Shown here one piece after another: positions 1-19,900 of a DNA stretch of 23,801 bases. Where the stretch lies: the IMG/VR virus record IMGVR_UViG_3300028414_000060, positions 1-23,801 of that record; one strand, written 5' to 3'. The stretch comes from a virus. The translations under genes and the position numbers were made by a program. Under the pieces are notes generated by a model, which ran no database searches, was not told where the DNA came from, and was given only the letters and a program-made list of their open reading frames with translations. The number at the start of each line of letters is the position of its first letter. Position 1 is the stretch's first letter.

Positions 1-594
1 ACCACCTGAATTTGGATTAAAAGACATACTTATAACAGGAACTCTTGTCGTTGGAGTAGCACTCTCGTTGGAAGCCCAGTAGTTTTTTACTATAGCCCAA
101 GTATGGTTTTTTCTTAATGGACTACCTTCGTTATCAATGATCACAGGATCTAATACAGAGATTAAATGATACAAAGTACTTAACTCACTACTTGTAGGTA
201 AATACCAATCTGTATAAGTAACACCACTTACAGTTCTAGAAATATCTGATGCTATCTTAGCGGCTGAACTTGTATGCCCTGATTGACTTATTATTTTATT
301 AGTGTTAAACGCACCATCACTTGTATTAGCCCCCGCATAATAATTCTCATTAGTTTCCCAAGCACCATCTACATAAGTACCATGAATATTACTCCACTTA
401 GTATTTTGTGATTTAATTGTTTGATAATCACTGCTTTGAATATTTTCTTCTGCTATAGTATGAGGAGTACCTTCTTGCAAATCAACAATATATACTGTTT
501 TATCTGCGGTAGCAGGAACCTCATTACTAATATCAAAAACTATCTTGATTTCATCTCCTATTTTAAAGCCTGTATTTATAGTAAAATTGCTCAT
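1..594 (-). CDS. Partial DUF1566/C-type-lectin-like phage surface protein (N-terminal 198 residues)
   Basis: The gene starts at ATG 594-592 and stays open to the window edge, so the C-terminus is missing. It begins MSNFTINTGFKIGDEIKIVF. From about residue 85 the pattern matches the DUF1566 (Lcl C-terminal) family: YYAGANTSDGAFNT, then HTSSAAKIASDI, then the hallmark TDWYLPTSSELSTLYHLI, then YWASNES near residue 178. In this family the segment forms a C-type-lectin-like fold, often on surface-exposed proteins. Its start lies five bases beyond the stop of the 1745-residue tail protein, so it is probably in the same operon and encodes a tail-tip or adsorption protein. No Shine-Dalgarno is visible. 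The family call rests on motif recognition. The window ends just where the last strands of the fold, the usual ligand-binding face, would begin. Confidence 0.75.
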   Translation of the reverse strand, partial: MSNFTINTGFKIGDEIKIVFDISNEVPATADKTVYIVDLQEGTPHTIAEENIQSSDYQTIKSQNTKWSNIHGTYVDGAWETNENYYAGANTSDGAFNTNKIISQSGHTSSAAKIASDISRTVSGVTYTDWYLPTSSELSTLYHLISVLDPVIIDNEGSPLRKNHTWAIVKNYWASNESATPTTRVPVISMSFNPNSGG

Positions 595-599
595 ATTTG

Positions 600-3500
600 T
601 TATTCGAAATTATTTGATGACTGTTGAGAAACTCTACCCGATATACTCACTGGTGTATCTTGACCTGTAATGTTTGATATTCCAGTAAATGAACTCACTT
701 TAAAATTTAAATACCTTGTGCTACCACCAAGAAAATTACCGGGAATATAAACCTGAACAGAGTCTATAGTTTGAGTATTTGTAAATCCAACGTCTACTGT
801 TTCTGATTCTATAATAGAATTATTTGAATCTATTGTCACTGTTATTGATCCTGATGCAACCCCTGTTGGTGCACTTTTGCTGACATCTATTTGTACATAT
901 CCTCCGTTAGAATTAACAGAGTTACTTTGGAGTGTAAACCCACCTATTCCAAGTGTTGTACTAGATGTTGTAAATGAACTAACATCTCCATAAGCAGTTC
1001 CAATATCGTTTTTAGCATATGCTCTAAAATAATATGTAGCACCAGATGCTAATACATTATTACTAACAGAGTATTTATAAGGAAAAGATGAAATTGCCGA
1101 CTGTGAAGCCTGTATTTTTATTACACCACTTTCACCTATTGTTGGGGTTTGGTCGGTTGTGGAGTAAACAAAACCTCTTTCAGTAATACCATTAGTTCCT
1201 GAAGTTGAACCTCCATTACCATCTATTCTTCCGCTTAATGTATTCCCAATAACCAGATAACTTTGAGTGGTCACTGTAGGTACTGAATTACTTGATGACC
1301 CTGTTGACTGGCTGCTTACTGAACTATATCTTGTCCCAAAATTAGAGATTAAATATGCTTTAGCGTAAACCGTTGTTTCTGCACTAAGACTAGTGACATT
1401 ATAAGACATACTTGTAATATCGCCTGTTACAACTTGCTTGGTCACCCCAGACCCTCCTATAATAGGGTTATTATTTGTAGTAGAATAAACAAAACCAAAT
1501 TCACTCGCTGTCTCTTTATTTAGAATTATAGAAGTATTTAATCCTAATGCTGATGTTGTAATGTCATCAAAAATTAAATTTGAAATACTTGCTCTTTTTA
1601 AAGGTCTTGAATCTATAACAATAGAATCAATATCTTCTTGAAAACCTGTGATAGTGATATTAAAACTACCAGGCTGATATCCGATAGTCGAACCTGAAGC
1701 AGTTATTGCTGTAGCATTTGTAGTTATTCTATTCGATGCTATATCCGAGCAAACACCTAATTCACATTCTGTAAAATTAGTGGAGTTATTATTTAATGCT
1801 CCAAACTGCCATGGAACACTTGATGTGCATGGTATTGTTAATGTTCCATTAGAAGGGGTTAAAGTTTTTTCTTCAAACATTGGATTTGTACCTGAAGACG
1901 CACCTGTAACTCTAATAGGAGTGTTTCCGCTTGATTGATAACCAAACAAATAAGATCTATCATTTGTGTATTCTGTAAAGTTTGATACAACAATGTTGCT
2001 TGAAGCAGGAAGAATATACCTTGTTAATTGTAATTCTATATTTTCAACATCTCCAAAAACATTATTTATAGTTAGTGACTTTGTTCCCATTTCAAAAAAC
2101 CCGTTAGAGTTTTGAACAAATCCTCCACTAACAGCATTTGTTACCGTAATACTAGAGCCTGTAGGTAATGACACAACACCAGAAGGTATTGTAAACCCAT
2201 ATGGTGATGTAAAAGTTAAATTACCCTTACCATCGATTATGGTAACATCAGTTGTTATATTCCATGGTTTTTTTATAGTTACACTAACTATCTTTGTAGA
2301 AGGTGTTGAGCCATCATTTGTAATATCAATTACTGGTTCCTCTGGATAGTAAGGATCTTCTTGAAGAACTGTTGTTACTTCTCCAGTTTTTGGAAGAGTT
2401 AATATGTACTCTGAATTATAATCATCGTAAGTTGCTGTTATAAAATGAGGGGTAGAATCACTAGAGATTATGCTAGACTTTTCTTTAAAGAAAGTTTTCA
2501 TCTTAACATCTCCAATAGGAGTTAAACCATTATTATCATATCTTATAACTGTCTCGTTTTTTACATCAAACCAATATGCTGTTCCTTCATTGACAGCAAC
2601 TGACTCTGGATGTTTAGTTCCGTAAGAACCTTTTAAAGTATTTATTGTACCTATTACACCAGATGAAACTGCTAAAAACTGTCCGCCACTTGAGGACTGT
2701 TGAAGTTGTTGTTCTCCTAAATAAATACCAGAGGTTTCATTTTCTGATATCGCTAACATTATTGAACCAGTAGACTGAGTTTTGCTCGTAACTTTTAAAG
2801 ATCTTAATGGTCCTGTAGCATCATCTAACCTCTTTTCATCTAATGCACTAAACTTAGATAGTCCATTTATTTTACTTCCTGGTATTTTAGTTTCACTAAA
2901 TACTATACCAGTTGTCTTTTTTTGACTACTAACTTCTGATGGTACTAAGTTTGGTTTACCTGTTATCTGAATCCAATTTAGAAAATAATCATTACTCGGA
3001 TTCATCGATTCTGCTGCATAAGAAAATTGGTCAGCCATATCAACAGTAATATTGTTTCTTGAGTAAACAGATCTACCCCAGTCGCCATTTTGTCTCATAG
3101 TTCCCTCATAAATCATATGTATGGAAGTCCCATCGCTGTTACTTACTGTATTTCCTGAACCCGCAGCACTATTTAAAATATTTAAGCACGCCATACCTCC
3201 GTTTGAGTTATCTACTGTTCCTCTCCTAAACGCAAATTTATTTGTACCACCTTGGGCTTGTGCAATTACATCTGTTCCGAAACTAGTTTCCCAAAACAAC
3301 TCTTCTAGATTTGCATATGTTTGATCAACCCCATCAAAATTAATTTCCCATACATTTTCTACATGAGAATTAATTGCAGTTCCATTTTTTTGTTCTTTGA
3401 AATACAATCTAACTTCTGACCCTTCTATAATTGATCCATTTGGAGGTGAGGGGAATATACCATAAGCCCTTCGTGTTTCCTCATCCATGGCAGAATTATC

Positions 3501-5837
3501 TGCTATTTTTGCATTAACAACCCACCTGTCATTAACTGTATGACCAGTTACAGAGCCAAAGTTTACTTTAACTCCATGAGATAAGAATTGATCGGAACCT
3601 GTGATATTTATTTCACTACTATAAGGCTCGTTAACTCCAATTAAACTTCTACCCCTCTTTCTCCATTTAAACTTGTCTGGTGATCCTGTTGAACTAATTT
3701 TAATATCGTATCTGTAATCAAAAGAATGAGTTCCATTATTCGAGCCAGTATTACAAGTCATATCATTATTTCCTTCACCATAAAAAATTGGGAAGTCTAT
3801 GTATTTTATTTCGCCTTTTATTTCATGGTCTTGAGCATTTTTAGTGGTTGACTCACCTTCAAAGAAAAAGTTTTCTACACTACTTGTGTCTGCTTCTAAT
3901 GATCTTAAATAAACATCTCCAATTAAATTACCTGTTAAGTTAGAAAATGATGCAGTGCCACCATCCCTTATAATTCTACCATTAAAACATTCGTAATAAA
4001 ATTCATTTGGTTGTATTTTATGAGGGCTATATATCTCATAAATTATATTATAATCAGAGTTCGATAATGAGTTTGTGTTAAAATAATTAGTACTATTAAG
4101 GTTGTATAAATTTGTTTTAACATACTTACCTTCTTGCCCTGTAATAACTGCTTCAAATATATCGTCACCTTTTATTAATTTTATTCGGTCACCCTCTTGA
4201 TAACTGTATCCTTGTTTGTAAGACACAAGATCTCCTAAACCTACTGCAACTCCTTCATGTTCTGCGGAAAACGTAACAAGTTCCGCTTCAGAAAAAGTTC
4301 CATTGGGAGTTCCAGAAATTCCTTTATCATCGTTTTCATCGTTTGTTGGATAGTTTTTCTCTACATTAACCGTAAATCCTCCGGTTGAGTCAGTTTTATG
4401 ATATCTTACTTTATCTGAAAGATTTGATATTGTAAAATCTTTAGTCAAGTTTTTAGTTCTAACTATAGCATAATATTCAGCCCAGTCTGGTATCTTATTT
4501 TTTAAAGAATCATTTAAGGTGAATTTTATTGAGGAATTGTAAGTACTTAAATAAAAACCTCTTTCAGGTGTTATAACCTTTAAACTATCGTCAGTTAAAA
4601 CCCCACCAGTTCTTCCTGCAAAATCAAAAAAAGCAATACCTATTTGGTATGCTGATGAATGGGCAAAACCAACTTTACCACCTCTGTTTCTATCATATTG
4701 AGAAAAACTGTCGCTGAAGTTTTGCGTAATTATATCTAAACTTATGTCACTAGAATCTATCTGACGTGGATTTAATCTTCCTTCCTTTATATTACCTAAA
4801 AACAATCGGTTTCTTGCGATACTTAATGCCTCAGCCTCATAAGGAACTGTATCGTATAATTTTACAGAATTAGTGTCGTCTACAGAAAAACCTAAAACAT
4901 CATTATAAAAGTCTGCTGTGATTATTCCCTCTGTACTTTCTTTTTGTCCTAAAAATTCAGTAGCATGTGAAATACTATCGAATTCTTTCCAAATAAAATA
5001 TGATGTGTCTTTATCAAACTTAACCGCAAATTGTATCTTATGAACATCTTGTGATATACCATTTGAATCTGCTTCATAAAATGGAAATTCAACTTTAATT
5101 TTTTTAGATGTTTTATGATTATCATCGTCCATATCTTGGTTAGGATAATGGTGTGATGTAGGTGAAAAAACACTAGTCTCACCGTCTTTATACACATATC
5201 TGTATGCAAACGTATGTGCTCTAGATTTTAAAAATGAGGTGTCTCTTGTGCTATCTTCTTGAACTGTTATTTTTAAAGGTAACATCGGAGGTTTACGTAT
5301 CAAAGTAATTACCGGTTTTAAAATCGGTTGTTGATAAGGTTGGTCTGCGGATGAGTAGAGGGAATTATTTGTAGATATACCTCTTTCAACATTTATCCTA
5401 AATGGCTCTCTACCTTCAACACCAGTCCAATACAATATATCATCAATATATGCTATCCCTGTTATTGGTTTATCTTTATCAAAGTTTAATCTATAACCAG
5501 ATTCTAAGTTACTGTCAGACAAGACTTTGTATATGTTCTCGAATTCAGGCTTATAACAATATATAGCACACCCTGATGTGGATGTGTTAATTAAAAAATA
5601 AAATATATTGTTAGTGGTAGGATCTTCATAAGACCCTATAACCTTTGTGTCTGTGGAAAAACTCTGACTATTAGGTATTTTAGTCGTTCCATTTACATTA
5701 GAAAGCGAACCAGATTTACCCTCTGATGAAGATATAACTCTTGCGTTTAACGCATCTAAATTATCTTCGCCAGTATGGGCAAAAAAAGAATCATCAGTAT
5801 TAATACCTGCTATAAATGTTTTCTTTGAATTCTCCAT
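600..5837 (-). CDS. Large tail structural protein, crAss-like muzzle/stabilization type, with FN3-like repeats
   Basis: This 1745-residue protein probably forms the distal part of a short tail. The N-terminal third has motifs I associate with large muzzle or stabilization proteins of crAss-like and related Bacteroidota phages: ALNARVISSSEG (29-40), DILYWTGVEGREPFRINV (133-150), ARNRLFLGNIKEG (341-353), AYQIGIAFFDFAGRTGGV (396-413) and IPDWAEYYAIVRTKN (449-463). Near residue 1070 comes a YGTKHPESVAVNEGTAYWFD segment. The C-terminal 550 residues are Ser/Thr/Asn-rich beta structure, with two FN3-like repeats near 1443-1520 and 1548-1625. There is no signal peptide or membrane segment. Its start lies two bases after the stop of the 251-residue gene, and three ring-like genes precede it. 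The alternative is a generic tail fiber or baseplate protein. It is clearly a virion protein; the muzzle assignment is from memory of the family, not a search. Confidence 0.6.
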   Translation of the reverse strand: MENSKKTFIAGINTDDSFFAHTGEDNLDALNARVISSSEGKSGSLSNVNGTTKIPNSQSFSTDTKVIGSYEDPTTNNIFYFLINTSTSGCAIYCYKPEFENIYKVLSDSNLESGYRLNFDKDKPITGIAYIDDILYWTGVEGREPFRINVERGISTNNSLYSSADQPYQQPILKPVITLIRKPPMLPLKITVQEDSTRDTSFLKSRAHTFAYRYVYKDGETSVFSPTSHHYPNQDMDDDNHKTSKKIKVEFPFYEADSNGISQDVHKIQFAVKFDKDTSYFIWKEFDSISHATEFLGQKESTEGIITADFYNDVLGFSVDDTNSVKLYDTVPYEAEALSIARNRLFLGNIKEGRLNPRQIDSSDISLDIITQNFSDSFSQYDRNRGGKVGFAHSSAYQIGIAFFDFAGRTGGVLTDDSLKVITPERGFYLSTYNSSIKFTLNDSLKNKIPDWAEYYAIVRTKNLTKDFTISNLSDKVRYHKTDSTGGFTVNVEKNYPTNDENDDKGISGTPNGTFSEAELVTFSAEHEGVAVGLGDLVSYKQGYSYQEGDRIKLIKGDDIFEAVITGQEGKYVKTNLYNLNSTNYFNTNSLSNSDYNIIYEIYSPHKIQPNEFYYECFNGRIIRDGGTASFSNLTGNLIGDVYLRSLEADTSSVENFFFEGESTTKNAQDHEIKGEIKYIDFPIFYGEGNNDMTCNTGSNNGTHSFDYRYDIKISSTGSPDKFKWRKRGRSLIGVNEPYSSEINITGSDQFLSHGVKVNFGSVTGHTVNDRWVVNAKIADNSAMDEETRRAYGIFPSPPNGSIIEGSEVRLYFKEQKNGTAINSHVENVWEINFDGVDQTYANLEELFWETSFGTDVIAQAQGGTNKFAFRRGTVDNSNGGMACLNILNSAAGSGNTVSNSDGTSIHMIYEGTMRQNGDWGRSVYSRNNITVDMADQFSYAAESMNPSNDYFLNWIQITGKPNLVPSEVSSQKKTTGIVFSETKIPGSKINGLSKFSALDEKRLDDATGPLRSLKVTSKTQSTGSIMLAISENETSGIYLGEQQLQQSSSGGQFLAVSSGVIGTINTLKGSYGTKHPESVAVNEGTAYWFDVKNETVIRYDNNGLTPIGDVKMKTFFKEKSSIISSDSTPHFITATYDDYNSEYILTLPKTGEVTTVLQEDPYYPEEPVIDITNDGSTPSTKIVSVTIKKPWNITTDVTIIDGKGNLTFTSPYGFTIPSGVVSLPTGSSITVTNAVSGGFVQNSNGFFEMGTKSLTINNVFGDVENIELQLTRYILPASSNIVVSNFTEYTNDRSYLFGYQSSGNTPIRVTGASSGTNPMFEEKTLTPSNGTLTIPCTSSVPWQFGALNNNSTNFTECELGVCSDIASNRITTNATAITASGSTIGYQPGSFNITITGFQEDIDSIVIDSRPLKRASISNLIFDDITTSALGLNTSIILNKETASEFGFVYSTTNNNPIIGGSGVTKQVVTGDITSMSYNVTSLSAETTVYAKAYLISNFGTRYSSVSSQSTGSSSNSVPTVTTQSYLVIGNTLSGRIDGNGGSTSGTNGITERGFVYSTTDQTPTIGESGVIKIQASQSAISSFPYKYSVSNNVLASGATYYFRAYAKNDIGTAYGDVSSFTTSSTTLGIGGFTLQSNSVNSNGGYVQIDVSKSAPTGVASGSITVTIDSNNSIIESETVDVGFTNTQTIDSVQVYIPGNFLGGSTRYLNFKVSSFTGISNITGQDTPVSISGRVSQQSSNNFE
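960..1196 (-). repeat. FN3-like repeat 2 in the tail protein
   Basis: This encodes residues of about 1548-1625 of the 1745-residue protein. It starts TERGFVYSTTDQTPTIG and ends YYFRAYAKNDIGTAYGDVS then FTTSS. This is the fibronectin-III-like repeat common in secreted Bacteroidota proteins, which is why it matters for host assignment. Confidence 0.75.
1278..1511 (-). repeat. FN3-like repeat 1 in the tail protein
   Basis: This encodes residues of about 1443-1520. It contains FGFVYSTTNNNPIIGGSGV and ends TTVYAKAYLISNFGTRYS. It aligns with the following copy at the GFVYSTT start, the PxIGxSGV turn and the AKAY/RAYAKN-to-GT-Y end. Confidence 0.7.
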
Positions 5838-5839
5838 TC

Positions 5840-6595
5840 TTAAGATTTAACAGCCGCATACGTATGAGATCTTAATGACTTAAGAACATCATCTAATGAC
5901 AACTGATAGTTTCTACTTCTATATCTTTTGTGTGCTTGAAGCCACTCTTCTTTAGCCATCATCTTACCATTCATTGGCACGTTTCTATCGTGTTCTGTAT
6001 ATCTCCAAAGTATATACCTCTCTACAGCATCTGCTGCATAGGCAGGTATTGTTGTGGCATCTGAAGCCGATTCTGTTGTAGATGTAGTTATATAATCTAT
6101 AACAATATGTTTTGCCTTGTGTAAAGACGGATCCAACATTATTTTATTTCTTTCTGGTATTACCATAAAAGAATTCTTATATGTTGCTTTATGACCAAAG
6201 TGTCTTCCTACATGCTCTCCATGATCGTTTGTATGTGTGTCATTACTGTCAGAATAAATCAAACCCTGATCTGTTTCTACATCCGGATATGCAATTTGAT
6301 TACCGTCAGAATCTAAATTCATTAATCTATTGTATGAATTCTTTTCTATTAGATTTATAACAAACTGCCCATTTTCCCATCCTACTCTTGTATAATCTAC
6401 ATAGTCATTAGGTATGGTTACTTCTCTATTAGCGTCAACTGTTAGTTTAGTTGATTTAATTTTAAAAGGTGAATCAAATCCAATTTCTCTTACAGCCTTA
6501 AGACCATAATGCAAATACTGCATATAATAATGTATAGGTCGCCCTGAAGTAAGTAAAGCAGACCTTATTATTTCATCTAAATTATATACTCTCAT
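5840..6595 (-). CDS. Tail ring/connector-like structural protein (251 residues)
   Basis: This is a probable tail-tube or ring subunit. The N-terminus is helical (NLDEIIRSALLTSG, then HYYMQYLHYGLKAVREIGFD). A beta segment follows with IPNDYVDYTRVGWENGQFV (61-79), a pattern I know from small phage structural proteins of tail-tubular or connector type. A His-rich stretch (H121, H125, H128, H132, H135) is unusual and could bind metal or form a loop. The C-terminal helices include AVERYILWRYTEHD and EEWLQAHKRYRSRNY. Its ATG overlaps the upstream stop by four bases (ATGA), which implies translational coupling, and the large tail protein starts two bases downstream. There is no Shine-Dalgarno. The exact ring position is unknown. 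Confidence 0.5.
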   Translation of the reverse strand: MRVYNLDEIIRSALLTSGRPIHYYMQYLHYGLKAVREIGFDSPFKIKSTKLTVDANREVTIPNDYVDYTRVGWENGQFVINLIEKNSYNRLMNLDSDGNQIAYPDVETDQGLIYSDSNDTHTNDHGEHVGRHFGHKATYKNSFMVIPERNKIMLDPSLHKAKHIVIDYITTSTTESASDATTIPAYAADAVERYILWRYTEHDRNVPMNGKMMAKEEWLQAHKRYRSRNYQLSLDDVLKSLRSHTYAAVKS

Positions 6596-7254
6596 ATCTG
6601 ATTATTTGAATCTGATGCTTTATCTACCACTTTAGGCAGTGCACCAATTAACGTTAAAACTTCTTTTACAACCGTTTCTTCCATTTCAATAGGTATCTGT
6701 AAGTAATCATACTCACCTTGTATTGAAGGGTCTACAACTAGTAACTTTATTTTTACTTTATTAGCATTATAAGGTGATTCTGTAATATCAGTTAAAAAAT
6801 TTATGACATTACCTTCCGCCCAATATCCTACTTGAGTTTCTAAGTATTTTAATGACGATTGACGATCTATTAAATTATGCTGTCCAGTTTGCAATGGAAT
6901 ATATTCAGTGTTATCTTTAGCAGTAGCACTAGAATCTATATTTGTACCTGTTACGCTCCAGACTCCCATGTTTCTAGGTAGGGATATTGGAAAGACAGGT
7001 AAAACTGCATGAACATAAGGGTTACTAGTAGTGTTGCTAATTAGATTTACTATATATGTTGTAACCAATGTGTGTGGAGGAAATAAGTCACCTGACTGCA
7101 TATTTACAGCCATATGTTCTGTTTTAAGCAATCTATTTATTACTTGACTAACCAGTAAATTTATATCATCTCTTGAGAATTCCTTTTCATCGTTTACACC
7201 CCCTCCAGAGTATAACCTTAATATTTGATCTGTTAATTTTCCTTTTGTTATCAT
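6592..7254 (-). CDS. Tail ring-like structural protein (220 residues)
   Basis: I do not recognise this protein by a diagnostic motif. It begins with a helical segment (KLTDQILRLYSGGG, then FSRDDINLLVSQVINRLLKTEHMA), continues as mixed beta sequence with many Asn and Thr, and ends with an acidic helix (IEMEETVVKEVLTLIG). No transmembrane or signal segment is visible. It is joined to both neighbours by four-base ATGA overlaps, so it is translated in a fixed ratio with them. The position between two similar-sized proteins and immediately ahead of the muzzle-like gene suggests a tail-barrel or ring subunit. That role is inferred from gene order and size only. Confidence 0.45.
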   Translation of the reverse strand: MITKGKLTDQILRLYSGGGVNDEKEFSRDDINLLVSQVINRLLKTEHMAVNMQSGDLFPPHTLVTTYIVNLISNTTSNPYVHAVLPVFPISLPRNMGVWSVTGTNIDSSATAKDNTEYIPLQTGQHNLIDRQSSLKYLETQVGYWAEGNVINFLTDITESPYNANKVKIKLLVVDPSIQGEYDYLQIPIEMEETVVKEVLTLIGALPKVVDKASDSNNQI

Positions 7255-8126
7255 AGCCCTGTTTGATTTTTACCTTCTGTGTACTGAACAACATTAATGT
7301 CTTCTAAGTAAACTCCTAGAGAGTTCAAGGCTTTGTTTATAACATCATTTATGCAATCATCCGCCCAATTTAAACCTATAGACGGAACCAATGAATAAGT
7401 CGCACCTGCCGCAACAGCAGTACCGTTTGGAAGAGTCAGAGCGTTATTTGCTGTAAAAGTGGCTGCCGATGTAGTTGAACTATTATGTACAATTTTTCTA
7501 CCATCCACTACATGACTAAATCTAGGTTTTTGAGGTCTAGTTAAATACATTATATAGCCTGAGTGTTGAATTTCAGGAAACAATTGAATTTTACCTCCTC
7601 CATCTCCTAGTATACCTATTGGTGATATATTGCTAGGAGCCGAGACCTGAGATACAAGTCTGTCTGCTAACTGATCTTCACTAACAATCTTTACAGGTTT
7701 AGAATACGATCTATTTGATGATCCTTGTGCAAAAGCAATTGTTCCATCTGTAATTGTATACGTATTGTTTGGCGTATTATTTAAAGTACCTACAACATAC
7801 AATCCTAATAGATGTAAATATTTTGGATTCTGACCACCACCAGTATTAGTGAAATTAACTAAATCTAATACACCATTACTGTTTGTGGTAAACTGCTTAC
7901 GCATTTTAAAATATCTAAGGTCATCAGATATTTTTTGTGTTTGACCATATGCAATAGGCGGTATAGGTCTACCGGGCTGATATTGTTTAGGGTTGCCATA
8001 CAACTCCATAAACTTAGACATTTGACCTCTGTCAATAGCCGCATCAATATCACCATGTGATATATACCCGGTAGTTTCCTTGTTAAGTATGAATACTATG
8101 TAATCATGAATCTCCTTTATCGTCAT
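7251..8126 (-). CDS. Tail ring/hub-like structural protein (291 residues)
   Basis: The N-terminal helical segment (MTIKEIHDYIVFILNKETTG, then SHGDIDAAIDRGQMSKFMEL) resembles the start of several small phage connector proteins that are followed by a beta-rich body. The middle carries a Pro-rich loop (QYQPGRPIPPIAYGQTQKI) and a beta-rich body with IMYLTRPQKPRFSHVVDGR. The C-terminus is helical (WADDCINDVINKALNSLGVY). No enzyme motif is seen. The ATG lies 23 bases inside the end of the upstream 94-residue gene, and the stop overlaps the next start as ATGA. It heads the three-gene ring-like block. A connector or ring role is inference. Confidence 0.45.
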   Translation of the reverse strand: MTIKEIHDYIVFILNKETTGYISHGDIDAAIDRGQMSKFMELYGNPKQYQPGRPIPPIAYGQTQKISDDLRYFKMRKQFTTNSNGVLDLVNFTNTGGGQNPKYLHLLGLYVVGTLNNTPNNTYTITDGTIAFAQGSSNRSYSKPVKIVSEDQLADRLVSQVSAPSNISPIGILGDGGGKIQLFPEIQHSGYIMYLTRPQKPRFSHVVDGRKIVHNSSTTSAATFTANNALTLPNGTAVAAGATYSLVPSIGLNWADDCINDVINKALNSLGVYLEDINVVQYTEGKNQTGL

Positions 8127-8481: not shown

Positions 8482-9147
8482 TTATATGAAGATGAAGGTT
8501 TTTTCATGACCTAACTTTACAGACGTATCGAAGTTGACATCGTAACCTGCTGCTTTAATTTTTCTAAAGAATACAACGTCTTCTCCGTAGTTTTTATCTG
8601 CTTGATCATCAAACCATAAAGGAGGTGTAAGTTTATCAAATACCTCTTTTTTAATTAAGCAAAAACCCAAACCACCAAAGTCTCCTTGGATCATTTTATC
8701 TTTATGTTTTTCTATATACTCATCATTAATCCAGTCGCCACCTTCAGATTGTTTTCCTCCTACCCAAGCAGACCAAGCGTTATCTGGTTTTATTCTGTAG
8801 ATACCTGAAACAACAGGAACATTTCTCGATATTAAGTTTTCTAAATCTGTAGGGTGAAATGTCATATCAGAATCAATAAGCAACATATAGTCAAAATCAA
8901 ACTCTCCATTAAAAGGTTTTGCCGAGTTATGAGATGTGCCCATAACCTTATCTCTTGAAGTCTGTATAAGTGAACTGTAATCAATATTAGACGTAAACAC
9001 ATAACCGTTGTTTACTATCCACATAATTAAGTTTGTCCAAGAATTTAAAAAGTTGTTTGAAAATCTGTTACCTGGTGAGGCTATAAAAATTCTTGGTTTA
9101 TTTTCATCTTTACACTCCACACAAGGTGTTTCTTTGTTTTTTTTCAT
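8482..9147 (-). CDS. GT-A-fold (family 2-like) glycosyltransferase
   Basis: This is a predicted cytoplasmic nucleotide-sugar transferase of 221 residues. Residues 18-24 (PRIFIAS) form the first strand. QTSRDKVM (62-69) and DFDYMLLIDSDMTFHP (84-99) follow, with D92-S93-D94 in the place of the metal-binding DxD motif. The VVSGIYRIK segment (112-120) and the acceptor-side GEDVVFFRKIKAAGYD (188-203) with the Glu-Asp pair are typical. His214 near the C-terminus fits the late metal-ligand histidine of such enzymes. An N-terminal Cys9-x2-Cys12 is unusual. It sits alone between virion genes, with a 22-base A-rich leader and a 93-base gap after it. The substrate is unknown; it could decorate a fiber or a host surface glycan. 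A dedicated transmembrane segment is absent. Confidence 0.8.
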   Translation of the reverse strand: MKKNKETPCVECKDENKPRIFIASPGNRFSNNFLNSWTNLIMWIVNNGYVFTSNIDYSSLIQTSRDKVMGTSHNSAKPFNGEFDFDYMLLIDSDMTFHPTDLENLISRNVPVVSGIYRIKPDNAWSAWVGGKQSEGGDWINDEYIEKHKDKMIQGDFGGLGFCLIKKEVFDKLTPPLWFDDQADKNYGEDVVFFRKIKAAGYDVNFDTSVKLGHEKTFIFI

Positions 9148-9169: not shown

Positions 9170-10243
9170 TTAAAGCCCTGGGTCATAATAAGTATTTTCA
9201 ATATTTCCAGTCGCATGAAAGGCATTGTAAAAAGCAATAACATTAGTTATTCCACCTCCTGGATAACCATTATTTGTATATGTTGTAGACGGAAAACTTC
9301 CACATCTCCACCCAGTACCTGCGAAAGCAACTTCTGATCCTGAAGTGCCATTTGTTTGATATATTGTATTCCCTACCGTCCAAGAACTACCTGCACATTG
9401 GTGAATATAGGCAGTACTCCAAGATGAAGAATTATACCTTTGTTGGTAACCTGCGGTTAAAGCACTAGAGCCACTACTGTATTGATAAGCAGTTGAACTA
9501 CCGCTTCCCAATATTGGTACAGCGTACATTGTTCCATTATAACTACAAGTAGAACCATGGTAATATAAGTTACTTATACTACATATGTCCTGCTCGCCAT
9601 TGCACGAATTATTGTTTGAAAACTCAAACACTATTAACAACTCGTCATCGTCAGAAATAGTACCTGTATAAGTAGTGTATCCTGTAGTGCTTTTTGTGTG
9701 AACAAGAGTAAATCCTGAAGTGGTGTATCCGTAGGATGAACCATGATATCCCTTGTAAACCTTTAAGGTTGCACAGGTTGTGCTTTCCCTGTAAAGTCGT
9801 ATGTTGTAGTTCTTAGAAGAACCTGTTACATTTCTGTATCTAACATACCTAATAAGAAATGCTAATGCATCTCCACTTGTAAAACCTACTATGCCAGAAT
9901 TTGCTGTTATTGCGTTAGAGGAATTACATCCAGATGTGCTGTATTGATTTGATCCTACAAAATTTGAGTGAACAACTTGAATACACGCACCACTTGATGC
10001 TGTTGCATCGTGATCATAACCGTACCATTCAGACATCTTATATGGTGCAGCATTATCTGGTCTAGAAGCAGAATTGGTATTCGTAACATCATATGAAACA
10101 CCACTACCATTAGAGTCCCCACTTACTGCAAGGTCTTTCGAACTATAAGGAGCAGCAGGAAGTTGTGCTTGGTTATAGTTGTCAAAATGCTTTTCATTAG
10201 CAATTTTTGTTAGATGTAATGTTCCTGAAGTGGGTACAGCCAT
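9170..10243 (-). CDS. Cys/Tyr/Ser-rich receptor-binding-like tail protein (357 residues)
   Basis: The N-terminus (MAVPTSGTLHLTKIANE) and the segment SRPDNAAPYKMSEWYGYDHD (60-79) are a module I associate with short tail-fiber or receptor-contact proteins of Bacteroidota phages. From residue 80 the sequence is rich in Ser, Thr, Gly, Tyr and Asn and looks beta-structured. It has eight cysteines (87, 106, 157, 214, 221, 233, 283, 314), an even number and far more than neighbouring proteins. No enzyme motif is seen. The ATG abuts the stop of the 128-residue gene, and both follow the giant fiber. The role in adsorption is inferred from composition, module and context. Confidence 0.5.
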   Translation of the reverse strand: MAVPTSGTLHLTKIANEKHFDNYNQAQLPAAPYSSKDLAVSGDSNGSGVSYDVTNTNSASRPDNAAPYKMSEWYGYDHDATASSGACIQVVHSNFVGSNQYSTSGCNSSNAITANSGIVGFTSGDALAFLIRYVRYRNVTGSSKNYNIRLYRESTTCATLKVYKGYHGSSYGYTTSGFTLVHTKSTTGYTTYTGTISDDDELLIVFEFSNNNSCNGEQDICSISNLYYHGSTCSYNGTMYAVPILGSGSSTAYQYSSGSSALTAGYQQRYNSSSWSTAYIHQCAGSSWTVGNTIYQTNGTSGSEVAFAGTGWRCGSFPSTTYTNNGYPGGGITNVIAFYNAFHATGNIENTYYDPGL

Positions 10244-10634: not shown

Positions 10635-10955
10635 TTATTTTTTGCAGTTACAGGCTCTTTTATTACATACAGCCATTTGTGATTTAAGTTCGTCTATTTG
10701 TTTTTGTTGCTCTTTCATAGCCTCTAGTAAAACAGGAATAAGACCTTGATATCTTAAAGACAAATTACCATCCTCGTTTTCTCGTACAAGTTCTGGTACA
10801 ACCTTTTGTACATCTTGTGCTATAAAACCAATATCTTCTTTTATATCTAGAAGACTATCGCTTTCTTTCCAATCAAAAGAAACACCCTCTAAATCCATTA
10901 CTTTATCTAAAGCATTTTCAATAGGTTTTATGTTTTCTTTATAATTTTTATCTGA
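10635..10955 (-). other. Peptidase_S74 autocleaving chaperone domain
   Basis: This encodes residues 3100-3205 of the giant fiber. The catalytic-type Ser3100 and Lys3105, the GFIAQDVQ core and the final helix (LIPVLLEAMKEQQKQIDELK) are all present, so the domain looks active. In studied members the domain trimerises the fiber and is then released. Confidence 0.9.
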
Positions 10956-13900
10956 TGGAGATCCGTAGGCTACAACATCGCCTTTCACAGTTAAAGTACC
11001 TGAAGAACTTAACCCCAGTTTATTTACTATAGTTTCTTGGGACTTTTGATCCGCTGATCCAGTTCCTATATAAAAACCAGTTGAAGCACCTCCACCACCT
11101 GCTTGTAGTCTCCAAGGATAATTAAAAGTTCCAGTACCTGTTGGTCTGTAGAACATTATTCTAGGATTTTGGTCTGTAGTTGCAGGTATTACTACTTCTG
11201 AATTTGCAAAAGTAGAATCTAAAGCAAAATTTGCTGCACCTGTGAAAGTGTAAACTCCAGAAGCAGTATCATTTGCGTTAGATGTTAGATAATTAGAGTG
11301 AGTATGTAATGAAGCAGCAGCACCTATTTCTGTATAGGTAGGTTTATGACCTTCGTGATATATTTCTCTAGGAATACTATTGTCTATAACATAGTTCCCC
11401 TCTTCTAATGTTGAAGTATCTAACTCTACAGTACCGCCTGATACTGGTGCAGGTTCTGAAGTAACACTTGGTTTTGTTGTGTAAAAAGAATTACCACCAC
11501 CTGATTTAATTAAATGTATATCTGCTTGTGTATATCTTGATGTTCTTATATACACATCCCAGTAATGCCAACTAGCACTAGTAGTTGTATCAGATTTAAC
11601 AACTCTAATACCTACCTTATCTGTGCCTGAGCCTGTAGCATTATGTAAAACATCAACGCTACCAGTTATTTCTATTTCAGTATTAGTTTCACGACCTTGT
11701 ATTGCTATGTCAAATTTTTGCGTTCCGAAAGTTTCAACATGGTTACTTAAAAATCCTTTTATTTGTAAGCCTCCATGACCTTGATTCACCTGAGCAACCT
11801 TATACCACTTGTTGCCAGTCATATTACCTTCATCCCCTAATTTAAACTTCCACTCGTTACCATTACCATCAGTTGATGTAAACTTTGCATCTATTTCAGT
11901 TTCGGTGTAGTAAATATCGTTATGGTTGTGAGCACTTGGTGTAAACGTTGATGGTTTAGATTCAATCTCAGACCAGGTTGGTTTATGACCTTCGTGATAA
12001 ACTTGCTTTGTTCCATCAGAGCCTATATATAGTTCACCGTTACCTTTTAAATTTAAAACTTTTGCCCAACTAGTTGTGGCTGTTTTATGTGCAATACCAA
12101 ATAAACCATCTTGATCTCCTGCATCAACATCACCTAAAACCAAAGCCTGATTTGTGCTTCCTTGTTCGTTTACAAGTACAGTAGCGTTAGAGTGTTGGAA
12201 GTTAAAACCGTAACCATTTGCTTGAGCGTGTAGTATTCTTGTCCAACTATCTCCACTTGTATCGCCAACATGAACCTCACTATCCTCTGCAACTATGTTA
12301 CCTGAAAAAGTTGCGTTTTTAGATGTATCTATAACAACAGCATCTTGGTTATTTTGGATTATCTTAACCGTAGTATTTGAATCCGAACCTATTCTAGTAT
12401 CGTTACCTTCCTGTTGAAATAAAGCAGCACCTGCGTCTGTGTCGTTTAAATATATATAAGGGTTTGTTACATTTTCTACCGTTACATTAGTGCCTTTTAC
12501 CTTTACATTACCATAAAAATTTGAAGTTTTATCACTCTTTATTTCAAACGCTTTTTCATGTCCACTTCCTGCGGTATCTGAATCAGCATTAACAAAAAAG
12601 TAATGGCTCTGGATTCCTGCGAATGAGGCATCAGCACTACCATAATAAATGGCATTAGAATTATTCTGTTGGAATGTTTGAATAATACTAACATTATTTC
12701 CTTCGTAATTCTCTGTTACAATACCTGATTGTTTATTTGTATTTGCGGTAAGATTACTTGCTATTTTTAATTGATTATATCCAGTGCCTCTTATATCAAG
12801 TGCCCCTGCAAAAGTTGTGTTACCTGCACCATTAATAGTTTGTCTAACAACGCCATTCGTGGCAAATTCTAAATTATAATTACCTTGAACTGCTAAAATT
12901 CCCGCATAAGCAGTATTGCCGGTTGCAAAATTACCACCTGTAGAACCTTCTCTTGCTACATAAAAACTTTGACCATTATTCTGTAAATCCAAGGCAACAT
13001 ATCCAGTGCTACCCAGCATTCTAATTCTACCATTGTTATTATGTATATCTATATCATATGTAGGAGCAGTTGTACCAGTTCCAATCCCTATTTTACCTCC
13101 AAAAGTTGTGTTACCTGCACCATCTACTTTAATGTCCCATCTACTATCAGTATCATTATATAGACCAAAATAATTAGCAGTATTGCTAAAAAAGAAATCA
13201 TCTCCAGAACCATTGAAAATTAATCTTGGAATATCGTCTGATGAATTTAATGTTAAATAACCGCCAGTAGAAACTGCTCCTGCAAAAGTTGCGTTTTGTG
13301 ATGTACCTATTGTTAAGGCAGTAGTTCCACCTGTTTTTAACAATAAAGGAATAGAGGTAATTGAGCCAATATTCATTTCAGTTGTACGAGTTTGAATACG
13401 ACCCAATAAAGTAGTTCCATCATTTTCATACATATTGATTTCTGCAATATCATCTGAAGAACGACCATTTACCCTTAATCCTATTGCATTAGAATCTGAA
13501 TTAACAGTAATATTTCCTGCAAAAACCGCTGAGGTTGCAGTATCATTACCCAATCGTAGTATTTCTGCTCCTAAGTGTAGAAACTTAAAACCATCTCCTA
13601 CCGTACTGTGATCTTCCAGAACCGCTGTTGTACCTGAAGACCCCATCCTAAACCTTTGGTTATATATATCAATATTTCTGACATATAAAGTTCTAAAATC
13701 TTTAGAATCCGTAGTTCCTAAATCTTGAGTGTTGTCTGTTGTAGGTATTATATGACCTGCAAAAGTTGAATTACCCGCTGCATCTATAGTCAACCTTGTT
13801 GAAGGTGAAGTAGCACCATCAGCAGTAGTTTTAAATACTAATTTTCCAGGCATATCATTTTCCCCTGGAGTACCGTCTACATAAGCGTCTATACTCGCTA

Positions 13901-16900
13901 GTCTTTCATAGGCAGTGCCATCATAACCATAGAAACCTACAACTGCAATTCTTTCATTTTCTTGTACTATTGTAGGTGATGCTCCTGTACCGCTAGATTT
14001 TCCTAATCCTAAAAATGAAAAGTTTCCTGCTGTATCATTATGTGTAAAGATTTGAGCAGAAGCAAAAAGATCATTTTCAACATTTAAATCTCCTGTTCCA
14101 TAATTAGAATTATAAGAAGGAGTTGTGGTTCCAATACAAACCTCCTTTGAATCTTTTATAAATACATAACCGCTGTTGCTGTCGTTACCTAATTTAAGAC
14201 CTGCTGAAGTTCGTGCTTGTATTTGATTCACATATTGTGCACCGTCAATTGATACATCTTTTTTAAATGTTACATCCCCTTCAAAAAATGCGTCTTGTGA
14301 AGAATCAAGAGTTAGGGCAGTTGTACCACTTGTAGTTGTTGCAAATACCAAAGCACTACCCTCTGTTGCGTATACTTGACCTAAAATACCTGTAGTTGCG
14401 TTTGAAAGATTAACTGATGGTCTTGATGCACCTACTCCTTTTACTTCTAATCCTGTATAATTTGAAACACCATCAATAAGCAATGTTCCGTCAATCGTTG
14501 CATCATCGTCTACTTGCAATTTACCCTTGACCTGTACATCATCTTGGAATATTCTATCACCTACGCTATCTACTCTTATAACTTTCCATCCTGATATCCA
14601 ACACGCCCTTGTTCCAGATGTGTAAGAATAATTAAACAATGCTAATGGTGAAAAGTATGCGGCATCTGTTTCAAAAAAACCTGTATTTGATGCGTGATGT
14701 CCTGTAATGTAACCAGAAACTTTTGTCCAATTATTACCTGGGTTTTGATTTGACATTGTCCAATACCCATAAGAACCAGGGTTACCTGCTCCAGAATCAG
14801 GATAAGAAAAATCTGATTCATGATCCGTAGAACCCATATAGTGCCCCAATGTTGTTGTATCAGCATTTTTTATCCAACATTCTTGATAGTATGTAGCGTC
14901 TTGATCAATTGGAATCATAGGGAATCCTGAGCCATAAGGAGCACCCACACCAATATTACTATTTATGTAAATAGAATATCCTCCTGGTGCGTTTTCCTCA
15001 GTAGCCCAAGTAACATTATTACTGTTAAAAAAGGATTTTAATTCAGTATCATTCCAAGTTGGATCAATTTCAAAAACAGTATCACCTGGAGTATAGTGAC
15101 CTAAAGGATATTCAGATGTTATTCCTGATGCATACCTTGAGTTCTTTTTTGATAAACCACTAGTAAAAATAGGGTTTGCTTCGTCTTTTCTTGCAAATGA
15201 AGAAGATGAATAAGTATCTAATGTGTCTGCGTCTAATCCTGAACCCGATCCATCTACAGTCTTAATTGCTGTTAAAAGTTCGGCAGCAGTTGAGTAAACA
15301 TTTGCTTCAGCGTCTGTAGGTGCAAAAGATGTTGGTAAGCCTGATATGTCAACACCATCAACAGTAGCATTTGCCGCCATTACAATATTACCTGAAAAAG
15401 TTACGTTACCTGTGTCTAACGCTACACTTAAAGGTGTAATACTAGATGTAGAAATAGTAAAATTAGTACCGCTTGCTGTTAATATTGGATCTAAACCGCC
15501 ACCTGCTAGATTATCAAACTTTAGCGTTGGTGTAGATTTTGATATTGTTATGTCCCCTACAAAAGTTGCGTTACCACCTTCAGACATATCTAAGGTTAGT
15601 GCTGTTATCGTAGACGCACCATCTTTACCTCTAAAATAAATGTCTTTATCACTTGCTAAGTTGTCAACATACAAATGCCCTGTACTATTTCTAATAACAC
15701 CGTCCGACCCATCGTGGAAAAGTTTTAAACTTGTCCCACTAAAATTAAGAGTCTTCGAAGATTCTAAACTTACATCTCCTGCAAAAATTGCATTACCATT
15801 ACCACCGTCTAATCTTAAAGAAGTTATACTAGAACTTTCATCTTTAAACCATAAATCACCATTTGAAACAAATTGACCCCATTTACGTGTAGAATCTTGC
15901 ATGTATATTACAGGATTACCACCTCCTGAAGAATTAATAAAAAGAATATTATTTCCTGAGGATTGTGTCATTGTAACATCTCCACCAAATGTTGCGTTAC
16001 CAGATGTACTAATAGTCCCTACATTTGATAGATCATATACTGCCTCTGAAGCGGACGTATTACGAGCAGCAAAATTTAACCAACCGCTACCTGCTTTATT
16101 TAAAATTTGAATAGATTCTCTAAGATATAATCTACTAAAAGCCTGAATATGACCTGTTGCATCAATAGCACCACCAACTTTTAAATTATTTGTTAAATCC
16201 CAAGTATCATCACCCTCATCAAATATTAAACTTGCTTGGGTTATAGTGTCATTTCCGTTAGTGTCAAGACCCCTAAAGACAGATATACCAGAGGTAGATG
16301 CTGTCATTGTATTTGGTGTACCTTGTGTTGTGTTAAGTTGTAGTATATTATCTTTAACTTCTACAGTTGCTGTGTTTAAAGTTGTTGTAGTACCATTGAC
16401 AATTAGGTCACCCGCAACTGTTACATTATTTGTAAAACTTGCGTCACCAGAATTATTAATAATTAATCTATCAGTTGTGTTTGTTCTTAAAGCAACTCCA
16501 GTAGCGGCATTTCTAACCAAACCACTTGCAGATGCTGCTGTAAGCATAAATCCACCTGTGTTTGATACGTTTGCTCTAATATTACCTGCAACCTCTAGTT
16601 GATCTGTTGGATCCATACCTACACCAACTTTCCCTGCAAAAGTTGCGTTTGCGTCACCTTTGATTCTAAGTGCTTCTAATGGGGTTCCTGCGGTTTTAAC
16701 CCTAAATATAGTATCTCCTTGAGCAGCGTTAAATCTATTATCAATATAAGAATCACCTGTTGAAGCATTATGCCATAAATCTAATCCCGAAGAATTATCT
16801 GAACTTCTAAGTAAAACAGCAGTATCACCTGTATTTCCACTTACTCCTGTTAATTGCAAAACTTTACTAGCAGTTTCAGAGTCTGTAGGTAGAGTAGATC

Positions 16901-19900
16901 CAGGATTTGGAGTTCCTATGCCAACATCACCTTTTTTAGTAATACGCATTTTCTCAGTATTACCAACCCCTGCTTCGTAAGTTTTAATTGCTATATCTCT
17001 ACCAACAGTACCAGTATTATTGTAGTGAACTCCTATACCTCCGTCTCCATTGTTGAAAGTTAACAAGGAGTCATTACCACCTCTAATATCAATATTACCA
17101 TTTACAGTAAACTTTTGATAAAGTGTATCATGTCCAATACCCACCTTCCCATCAGAAAGTATTTTTAAATATGTATTTGTTCCTTTTGTAAAAGTATATT
17201 CGCTATTTGTTTTAAATGTTATTCCAGTACCTTCACCTTGTATAAAGTTATTTACATTACCTCCTAATGTAACTCTTCCTTCTAATCTAGAAGTTCCTGT
17301 ATTGTGTAGTTTATAACTAGGATCAGCAGTACCCACACCTAATTGACCGTCTTTATCTAGTACCATTTTAGTGGTACCCGCTATCTGCCAATGATGTTCA
17401 CCTGCCGCTTCAGCATCTTGGGCGTCATACAAGACTGTACCATCGTTTTGTCCATATGGCACACTAGTGGTTGATATTTTCAATCCTCTATTTGCAGTTC
17501 CTGTAAAGGTTGCGTGTGCGTGTTCACCTGTTCCAGAACCACCTCTAACTTCAAGTTTTGTGTTAGGCTCACTTACCCCGATACCTATTCTACCAGTGTC
17601 AGGAACTATTGTTAATGCTTCTAAAGTGTTTCCTCCATCAGTAACTCTAGTGAAAAACTTGTGACCTAAAGTGGAATTATATTTTATAAAAGAGTTACTA
17701 CCAGTAACCTCTATTGAACTTCCAGTATAAGTTCCTGCTTGTGTTGTAATTTCAAGATTACCAAACCTTGCTACTCTACCGTTTGTACCACTTGGTACTG
17801 TTAATTTATGACTTGGATCTACTGTTCCAACACCTAAATTACCCCCTGTAAACCAAGAACTACCATTTGAAGATAATCTTATTGATTCAGTAGTACCATC
17901 GGCTTGAAACATTGACATCCTTGAAGCGTTTCCACTTGCACCTACATAAAAATCAAATCTATTCTCGTTATTGTCTGCCTTAAATCTTACAAATTTACTT
18001 GTAGTAGTTGTTAATACTTCAAACTTACTACTAGGACTTGTTGTATTAACACCCACATCACCATCCGCATCTATATTGAAATAAGTTGTTCCGTTATTTA
18101 ATACTCTAAAGTTTCTACCACCATAATCATTATTAGCATTTACATCTATATAAAGAGAACCTGTTGAATCTATAGTAGATACTAAACCATTATTAAGCCA
18201 AGCATCTCCAGTTACCTTGATACCTGTGTCTATAGTTGATATTTTTAAATTGCTATTATAAAATAAATGTGCTCCACCGCCTGTAGAAAATTGAGCAGAT
18301 TGATTACCGTCTGCTCTTTGTATGTACAAATTATCTGATGGGCGAATGTATAAATTTCCTGCTCCGTTCTCGTCTATGTAACTATGTGATCCACTGTGAA
18401 ATATTTGAAGATCTTGTGAAGCACCAAATTTAAGTTTACCACCATTCCCATCATTAAACATCAACAAGTCCTTATTGACCATTAATGAGGATATGCTACC
18501 GTCTAGGTATAAGAAGGTTTCTAAACCGTTAGGTGTGGTAGTCTTTAAATAAAGATCCGATGCACCTGTTGTTTGGTTTCTTATTTCTAATGTACCAGTA
18601 TTGTTTCTTAGATAACTATTAGAGCCATTATGGTAAAGTTGAAAGTCATTACCAGAGCCAATATTTAATTGTACATTATCCCATAAATTTATGTTTTTTG
18701 CAAACTGAACATTTTCATATTCACCATCTACTCTAAAATACTCAGTGTCTCCTCCAGAACCGTTATCTGATTTAAACGAGATGCGTTTATTATCTGCCTC
18801 TTGTCTAAATACTAAGTCCCCAAGTTTGTTTTCAAAATAAGTATTAGATCCATCGTGAAAAATATTTAAATCTGCTGAACCACCGAATTGTGCTTTTATA
18901 CCGTCATTTAATCGTATATGTTTATTAAATAACGTTCTTCCCTCACTACCATCAATTTGTATATAGTTTTCAACTCCGCCAGAACCGTTATCAGATTGAA
19001 ATATAATATCCCCATCATCAGCACCATTAACAATTTTTAAATTACCTGTTTCGTTTACAATAAATGAATCTGTTGCGTTATGAAATATTTTAAGATCACT
19101 ACTACTTCCATATAAAGACTTTACATTATCAGGTAAGAAAATATCTTTAGAAAATACATTTAAACTTGCTCCACCATCAATTCTATAATATTGAGTAATA
19201 CCCCCTGAGCCATCGTCACTTTGAAATAAGATATCCCCATCATCTGCGTAGTTTCTTATATCTAAATGACCAACGTAGTTGTTTATGTGAGTATTTGCAC
19301 CACTGTGATATATTTGAGCACCATCAGACCAACCACTACCAGAGCCTAATAGTATTATAGACTGATCAGGAAATCTAGTACCAGTGTTTGTACCGTCAGC
19401 AACACTACCATCTAAATGAAAATATGTAGTTGATCCACCAGAACCATCGTCTGACTGAAACTTTATATCATGATTATCTGTATGGTTTATAAAGTTTAAA
19501 TCTCCTGTAGCATTTGTAACAAAAGCATTTGTTCCATTATGGTATATCTGCATGTCAGACGATGAACCAAAATTCCCTTTAACATTATCTAAATGTTGTG
19601 TTCCTTTTTCAAATTCTGTTCTTCCTTGACCACCATCTATTCTAATATATGTATCAATACCGCCTGAACCATTATCACTTTGAAAGATAATATCTCCATC
19701 ATCTTGTGAAACTTTAATTATAAGATCTCCTGTTTGGTTATCTACAATACCTGTAGTTCCTGTATGCTGTAGTTGTAGGTTTCCGGCACTACCAAGTTTA
19801 ACCCTTTTACCATCTTGCCATTGGGCACTTTCAGAAAATATTGTTTGTGTCTGACTCCCATCTAACCTAAAATATGTAGTAACTCCACCTGAACCATCAT

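Follow-up and report, generated by a model that had tools for sequence, protein, structure and literature searches.

In the human gut, crassviruses rank with the most abundant phages. As to how their tail tip senses the cell, the published structure only suggests that surface contact triggers the gate. The window analyzed here, i.e. the whole 23,801-nt stretch of the IMG/VR record IMGVR_UViG_3300028414_000060, comes from an uncultured phage group related to gut crAss-like phages. One of its ORFs (positions 600–5837, minus strand, read from 5837 to 600; 1745 aa, ATG start; hereafter muzzle-A) raises the question of how a tail protein comes to end in domains of a bacterial type. An earlier note on this DNA had read the first two thirds as a muzzle-like tail protein and the last third as an extension made of Bacteroidota-style FN3-like repeats. 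We favor, with some reserve, a different arrangement, in which the ORF encodes the leading half of a crassvirus-type muzzle that is split, and the domains at the break act as host-binding arms.

The hexameric muzzle of crAss001, gp44, consists of a ring-joining domain, a seven-bladed propeller with a gate loop, two Ig-like domains, and a crass domain, and its tip is presumed to make contact with the cell surface and so to gate ejection (PMC10172136). Residues 1–1155 of muzzle-A (2373–5837, minus strand), and not those beyond, align with unsplit muzzles of marine phages when a profile of 13 close relatives is compared by hhalign. Profile–profile comparison with an alignment led by gp44 (PDB 7qok/7qol; PF25731 and PF25729) gives a probability of 100% (E = 4e-49), and shows that the homologous N-terminal and propeller core of the crassvirus muzzle is present in muzzle-A, reaching one strand of a predicted propeller blade. 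The muzzle-like nature of the first two thirds is thus borne out, and so is a border between core and C-terminal third, although it lies nearer residues 1150–1160 than the proposed 1130; residues ~1161–1745 fall outside the unsplit-muzzle family in the profile–profile comparison. The start of the chain also matches a virion structural family, phrog_14478 (E = 7e-41). By HMMER, PF25731 alone does not reach muzzle-A, and PDB sequence searches with profiles of the clade and of its unsplit relatives gave no match even though gp44 is deposited there, so that the link to the muzzle needs profile–profile comparison.

In crAss001, the ring protein gp43 precedes gp44 (PMC10172136). Muzzle-A likewise follows tail structural genes: the three genes upstream, all on the minus strand, match virion structural PHROGs, namely 5840–6595, which adjoins the muzzle (phrog_13977, E = 3e-23), 6592–7254 (phrog_17190, a weak match at E = 0.06), and 7251–8126 (phrog_14543, E = 5e-6), and by position they are candidates for ring proteins. 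Farther along the same strand, a glycosyltransferase-like protein is encoded among the tail genes (8482–9147; phrog_34859, E = 3e-9; phrog_1574, E = 1e-35), and 10635–20252 encodes a repetitive tail fiber of 3205 aa with a C-terminal Peptidase_S74 intramolecular chaperone domain (E = 3e-19).

In unsplit muzzles, the core continues directly into a conserved C-terminal part (Pfam crAss_MUZ_C, PF25729). The unsplit proteins of phi38:1, Gundel, elemoF, and contigs L064–L073 match the core of muzzle-A only, and then run into the conserved ...SFYSYxPDxxGxxNxxFxSFKxGxLYxHN...FYGxxYxS..., while a Pfam profile search did not find crAss_MUZ_C in the 1745-aa chain. A strand-by-strand comparison of unsplit and split muzzles places the break after ...YNSEYILTLP (residue 1149; 2388–2391, minus strand), equivalent to residues 1198/1199 of gp44. 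Specifically, the homology of muzzle-A ends with the strand that corresponds to gp44 as far as residue 1198, and the profile of the downstream ORF (muzzle-B) matches the unsplit muzzles (E = 2e-14) from gp44 residue 1199 onward, where muzzle-A stops. A profile of the unsplit C-terminal tail matches the ORF directly downstream of muzzle-A in every relative, and crAss_MUZ_C is found in that ORF in all 14 full-length relatives. In a whole-record search, the frames carrying crAss_MUZ_C measure 288–519 aa in the window clade vs 1328–2070 aa in unsplit phages (crAss001, phi38:1, Gundel, elemoF, and other unsplit contigs; the 378-aa frame of Maribacter phage Panino reflects a frameshift). As the core stops at gp44 residue 1198 and the C-terminal tail resumes at 1199 in the next ORF, the sequences indicate that the muzzle is one protein in two chains, broken in one hairpin of a predicted beta-propeller. 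Taken as two chains together, it belongs to the crassvirus muzzles; as a single chain it does not. For comparison, gp44 is one chain of 1371 aa that lacks FN3 or Lcl_C arms.

An ordinary C-terminal extension would make the 1745-aa chain a whole muzzle plus added domains, and the gene after it an unrelated tail fiber or lectin. This would account for two ORFs that each have their own start and stop, and for the fiber-like, lectin-like domain in muzzle-B. We nevertheless consider it highly improbable and reject it, because the core ends short of the conserved C-terminal part of unsplit muzzles and three methods place that part in the next ORF. What the earlier note took for an extension is instead one half of an insertion by which the muzzle gene is split. 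The ORF at 1–594, which that note had passed over, belongs with muzzle-A and carries a second, lectin-like adhesion module.

Muzzle-B starts 5 nt after the stop of muzzle-A in the window, where its first 198 aa are encoded (1–594, minus strand, cut by the window end). This fragment is 73% identical to muzzle-B of contig L055, and the muzzle C-terminus of the window phage itself, which would lie past the point where the window ends inside muzzle-B, is placed there from its relatives. Complete copies occur in 19 related contigs (285–519 aa) and continue into the muzzle C-terminus. The distance from stop to start is 1–11 nt in most relatives and 56 nt in L059 and L063. This adjacency might suggest that programmed frameshifting or readthrough joins both ORFs into one long muzzle, but the gaps (1, 3, 5, 6, 8, 9, 11, or 56 nt) break any constant frame and muzzle-B begins with a start of its own (MSNF- or a similar sequence). 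Without a conserved frame relation, separate translation is the likelier course; we reject such joining and give it hardly any credence.

The first part of muzzle-B is an Ig-like domain into which, in most relatives, a lectin insert of ~160–220 aa is placed. In the window, the insert contains a putative C-type-lectin-like Lcl_C domain (25–273, minus strand; PF07603, E = 6e-4), scoring 20.5 bits against a curated cut-off of 34.9; Pfam finds Lcl_C in muzzle-B of 10 of 14 relatives, with a best E of 7e-6. Foldseek returned no match for muzzle-B at E ≤ 0.001, and VIA-align, a second look at the same Foldseek list, gave the Ig-like and Lcl_C matches, the latter to structure 8q4e (Z 6.5, 3.1 Å, 24% identity). 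The insert is alike in fold to the C-terminal domain of Legionella Lcl (PF07603, PDB 8q4e), although the Pfam match is weak; the Legionella domain sits at a collagen-like stalk, whereas that of muzzle-B is inserted in an Ig-like domain. In L059 and L063 the insert is cleanly absent. The lectin-less L059 is not at the base of the clade in the tree (87/100, not starred), and gain and loss of the insert both fit. Diversification of the lectin by a DGR was also considered, but finds no backing in the 16 related records, all fragments, in which no reverse transcriptase (PF00078) is found. Modeled alone, the C-terminus of muzzle-B reaches a pLDDT of only ~27, a value that would fit a half propeller needing its partner and, equally, a shallow alignment.

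The other module at the break is the adhesin-like arm of muzzle-A (residues 1161–1745; 600–2357, minus strand), predicted by AlphaFold to hold ~5 beta-domains; residues 1100–1745 were modeled as a string of such domains with a mean pLDDT of 76.8. Two of these, FN3-1 (residues 1414–1515; 1293–1598, minus strand) and FN3-2 (residues 1516–1627; 957–1292, minus strand), are FN3 folds by comparison of structures (~1415–1515 and ~1515–1627 in the model; VIA-align Z ~11, single-domain fits of 2.2–2.9 Å), and are followed by a terminal beta-domain (residues 1628–1745; 603–956, minus strand). Pfam fn3 (PF00041) matches nothing in the window record at E ≤ 0.001, nor any of 13 family members; the profile does match certain cellular proteins related to the repeat. 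By sequence, the repeats are 37% identical over 199 aa to a protein of a Bacteroidales MAG (E = 1e-15), and 16 genome loci, mostly in Bacteroidales, resemble them as well. They have the pattern GFVYS...PTIG...TYYFRAYAKN..GTAYG in common with the FN3-like repeats of Bacteroidota secreted proteins; the latter often form long arrays on secreted or surface proteins, whereas the muzzle arm has two copies on a phage tail protein. The proposed similarity to cellular FN3-like domains is therefore found and the repeat type is as claimed, but only 2 of the ~5 domains of the last third are FN3-like.

We find the arm to be an old, fixed trait of the clade. A total of 19 IMG/VR contigs, several of them near-identical to one another, encode the whole of muzzle-A at ~46–82% identity, and all 19 have the same C-terminal third. 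The arm is absent from the unsplit muzzles of phi38:1, Gundel, elemoF, crAss001, and L064–L073, and the C-terminal third gave no match among 50,697 deposited phage records. The repeats are accordingly not a feature of the whole phage family, a point on which the capture from a host suggested in the earlier note depended. Of that suggestion, exchangeable Bacteroidota-type domains stand, and an origin of the arm domains in a bacterial host may be supposed; a recent capture unique to the window phage is rejected, given an arm in all 19 relatives. L018 and L050 are one contig, in which a frameshift at the border of FN3-1 and FN3-2 interrupts muzzle-A (L018:8103–8131; 1507 + 245 aa), while the frame stays open in the near-identical L052; the frameshift is either real or an assembly error. 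Elsewhere in the window, the ORF at 9170–10243 (minus strand) has its first ~95 aa in common with a short ORF of contig L022 (L022:417–980, E = 6e-11). The C-terminus of that L022 ORF is the FN3-like repeat known from the muzzle arm (40% over 77 aa), so that near the tail cluster the repeat is not limited to a single gene.

Exchange of domains, also foreseen in the earlier note, is evident in the last one or two domains of the arm, which are replaced between near-identical phages. In the pair L048/L049 (also L019/L007), for example, identity is ~95% from the core across the first domains of the arm and FN3-1, falls to 57–61% over FN3-2 and the last domain, and returns to ~96% beyond. In this pair pS rises from 0.11–0.17 to 0.51–0.53 in the last domains; in L056/L047 (L008/L003) it rises from 0.01–0.05 to 0.30 in the last domain only, the segment most exchanged. 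Such ~3- to 11-fold jumps in synonymous divergence are not expected from selection on the protein alone, and point to replacement of arm-end alleles by recombination between related phages.

These replacements bear on what the added domains do. Ig-, FN3-, and lectin-type domains also act as spacers or assembly parts, and the split may be structural, with the added domains serving as spacers or assembly elements that stabilize the tail barrel or dock fibers. Virions often use Ig- and FN3-like domains as structural modules, and divergence is uneven in the core too, where L011 and L018 fall to 50–58% in the middle module. The IG domains of gp44 are themselves structural (PMC10172136). Against this role stand the arm ends, which are replaced between phages whose core and flanks are 95–99% identical, as happens in specificity parts, and the lectin-like insert, which is present in some members and missing in others. 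We regard the structural role as rather unlikely, though deserving of some weight, and domain type together with allele replacement leads us to infer host binding by the arms.

Under the reading we lean toward, two complementing chains would form one tail-tip muzzle that displays exchangeable host-binding arms. In an ancestor, adhesion-type domains would have been inserted in one hairpin of the beta-propeller, where the gene became two cistrons. The first chain would end in the beta-domain arm with its two FN3 repeats; the second would open with the Ig-like domain, usually with the Lcl_C insert, and close with the final strands of the propeller and the C-terminal domain of the muzzle. Both chains, made side by side, would co-assemble and complete one propeller, and both arms would be displayed near the tail tip and bind the host surface before the gate opens. 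Recombination that swaps arm domains between related phages could then alter specificity. The IG1 domain of gp44 is located between blades 2 and 3 (PMC10172136), and from the published topology, to which we owe the putative blade and strand of the break, the arms would hang on the tip side, since in a four-stranded propeller an IG1-type loop shares a face with the split hairpin if that hairpin joins strands b and c.

The split is not confined to the window clade. A search of deposited phages with the muzzle C-terminal tail retrieved the Cellulophaga phages phi13:2 and phi19:3 (Baltivirus, Pachyviridae), in which gp120 (1613 aa) and gp121 (241 aa) are both deposited as structural proteins and, in the annotation shown, are not named a split muzzle. 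The break falls in the same hairpin: the core of gp120 ends ...GGYDPYHKKYVLST, and gp121 begins MPKTITYSEKNKGWTSFF. A Big_9 bacterial Ig domain lies within the last 500 aa of gp120 (E = 2e-20), and gp121 is the muzzle C-terminus (crAss_MUZ_C, E = 6e-20). These phages resemble the window clade in the hairpin split, in the beta-domains added at the end of the first chain, and in a second chain that is the muzzle C-terminus, but they differ in domain types, lack a lectin, start the second chain right at the break, and have a separate origin. Specifically, a tree of the C-terminal tail places them among unsplit flavophages, one of which, Gundel, belongs to their own family (97/94), and a single clade of all split forms is rejected (p-AU 0.018). 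This alignment is short and several branches are long, which leaves the exact number of split events uncertain. Contig L095 is also split at this hairpin (1351 + 314 aa), and may share its origin with the split of the window clade (branch support 86/69, weak). Panino (L042) was rejected as a split muzzle: between its two ORFs, a different frame still encodes the core segment that they lack, and as read by eye the apparent split is a frameshift or sequencing error. This frameshift (L042:14320–14470) interrupts the deposited muzzle gene, and the remainder is annotated as a separate hypothetical gene.

We consider it an evenly balanced proposition that the hairpin of the muzzle propeller is a recurrent point of gene fission and docking, at which at least two lineages independently cut the muzzle into complementing chains and added bacterial-type adhesion domains to the broken ends, making the ejection gate a changeable organ of host recognition. 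A muzzle that has tolerated, on at least two independent occasions, being cut at one hairpin and given adhesin-like arms there pinpoints where recognition and gating may couple, and such coupling is directly testable in the cultured Cellulophaga phages. The muzzle, its Pfam families, and phage-borne domains of bacterial type are already known; in the open-licence literature, neither a split muzzle nor adhesion arms built into a muzzle turned up. One parallel is the BACON-domain tail proteins of p-crAssphage, where Bacteroidota-type domains are likewise found in fast-evolving crassvirus tail proteins (review PMC10136315); these BACON domains are reported in tail spike or fiber proteins, and not built into the muzzle. 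For annotation, the C-terminus of the muzzle is hidden in a short downstream "hypothetical" gene of split-muzzle phages, and the lectin-like start of muzzle-B could pass for a tail fiber.

Sequence exchange extends beyond the arm. Comparison of L011 with L018 shows a second such cassette halfway along the muzzle core (residues ~650–950), with 50–58% DNA identity between flanks of 80–95%; judging by the profile alignment, this region probably corresponds to the published crass domain. L058 and L060, otherwise near-identical, differ ~2.8 kb upstream of the muzzle start by tightly clustered substitutions and a gap of 3 bases, and in the lectin region by four changes within 10 bases, i.e. micro-exchange occurs elsewhere too.
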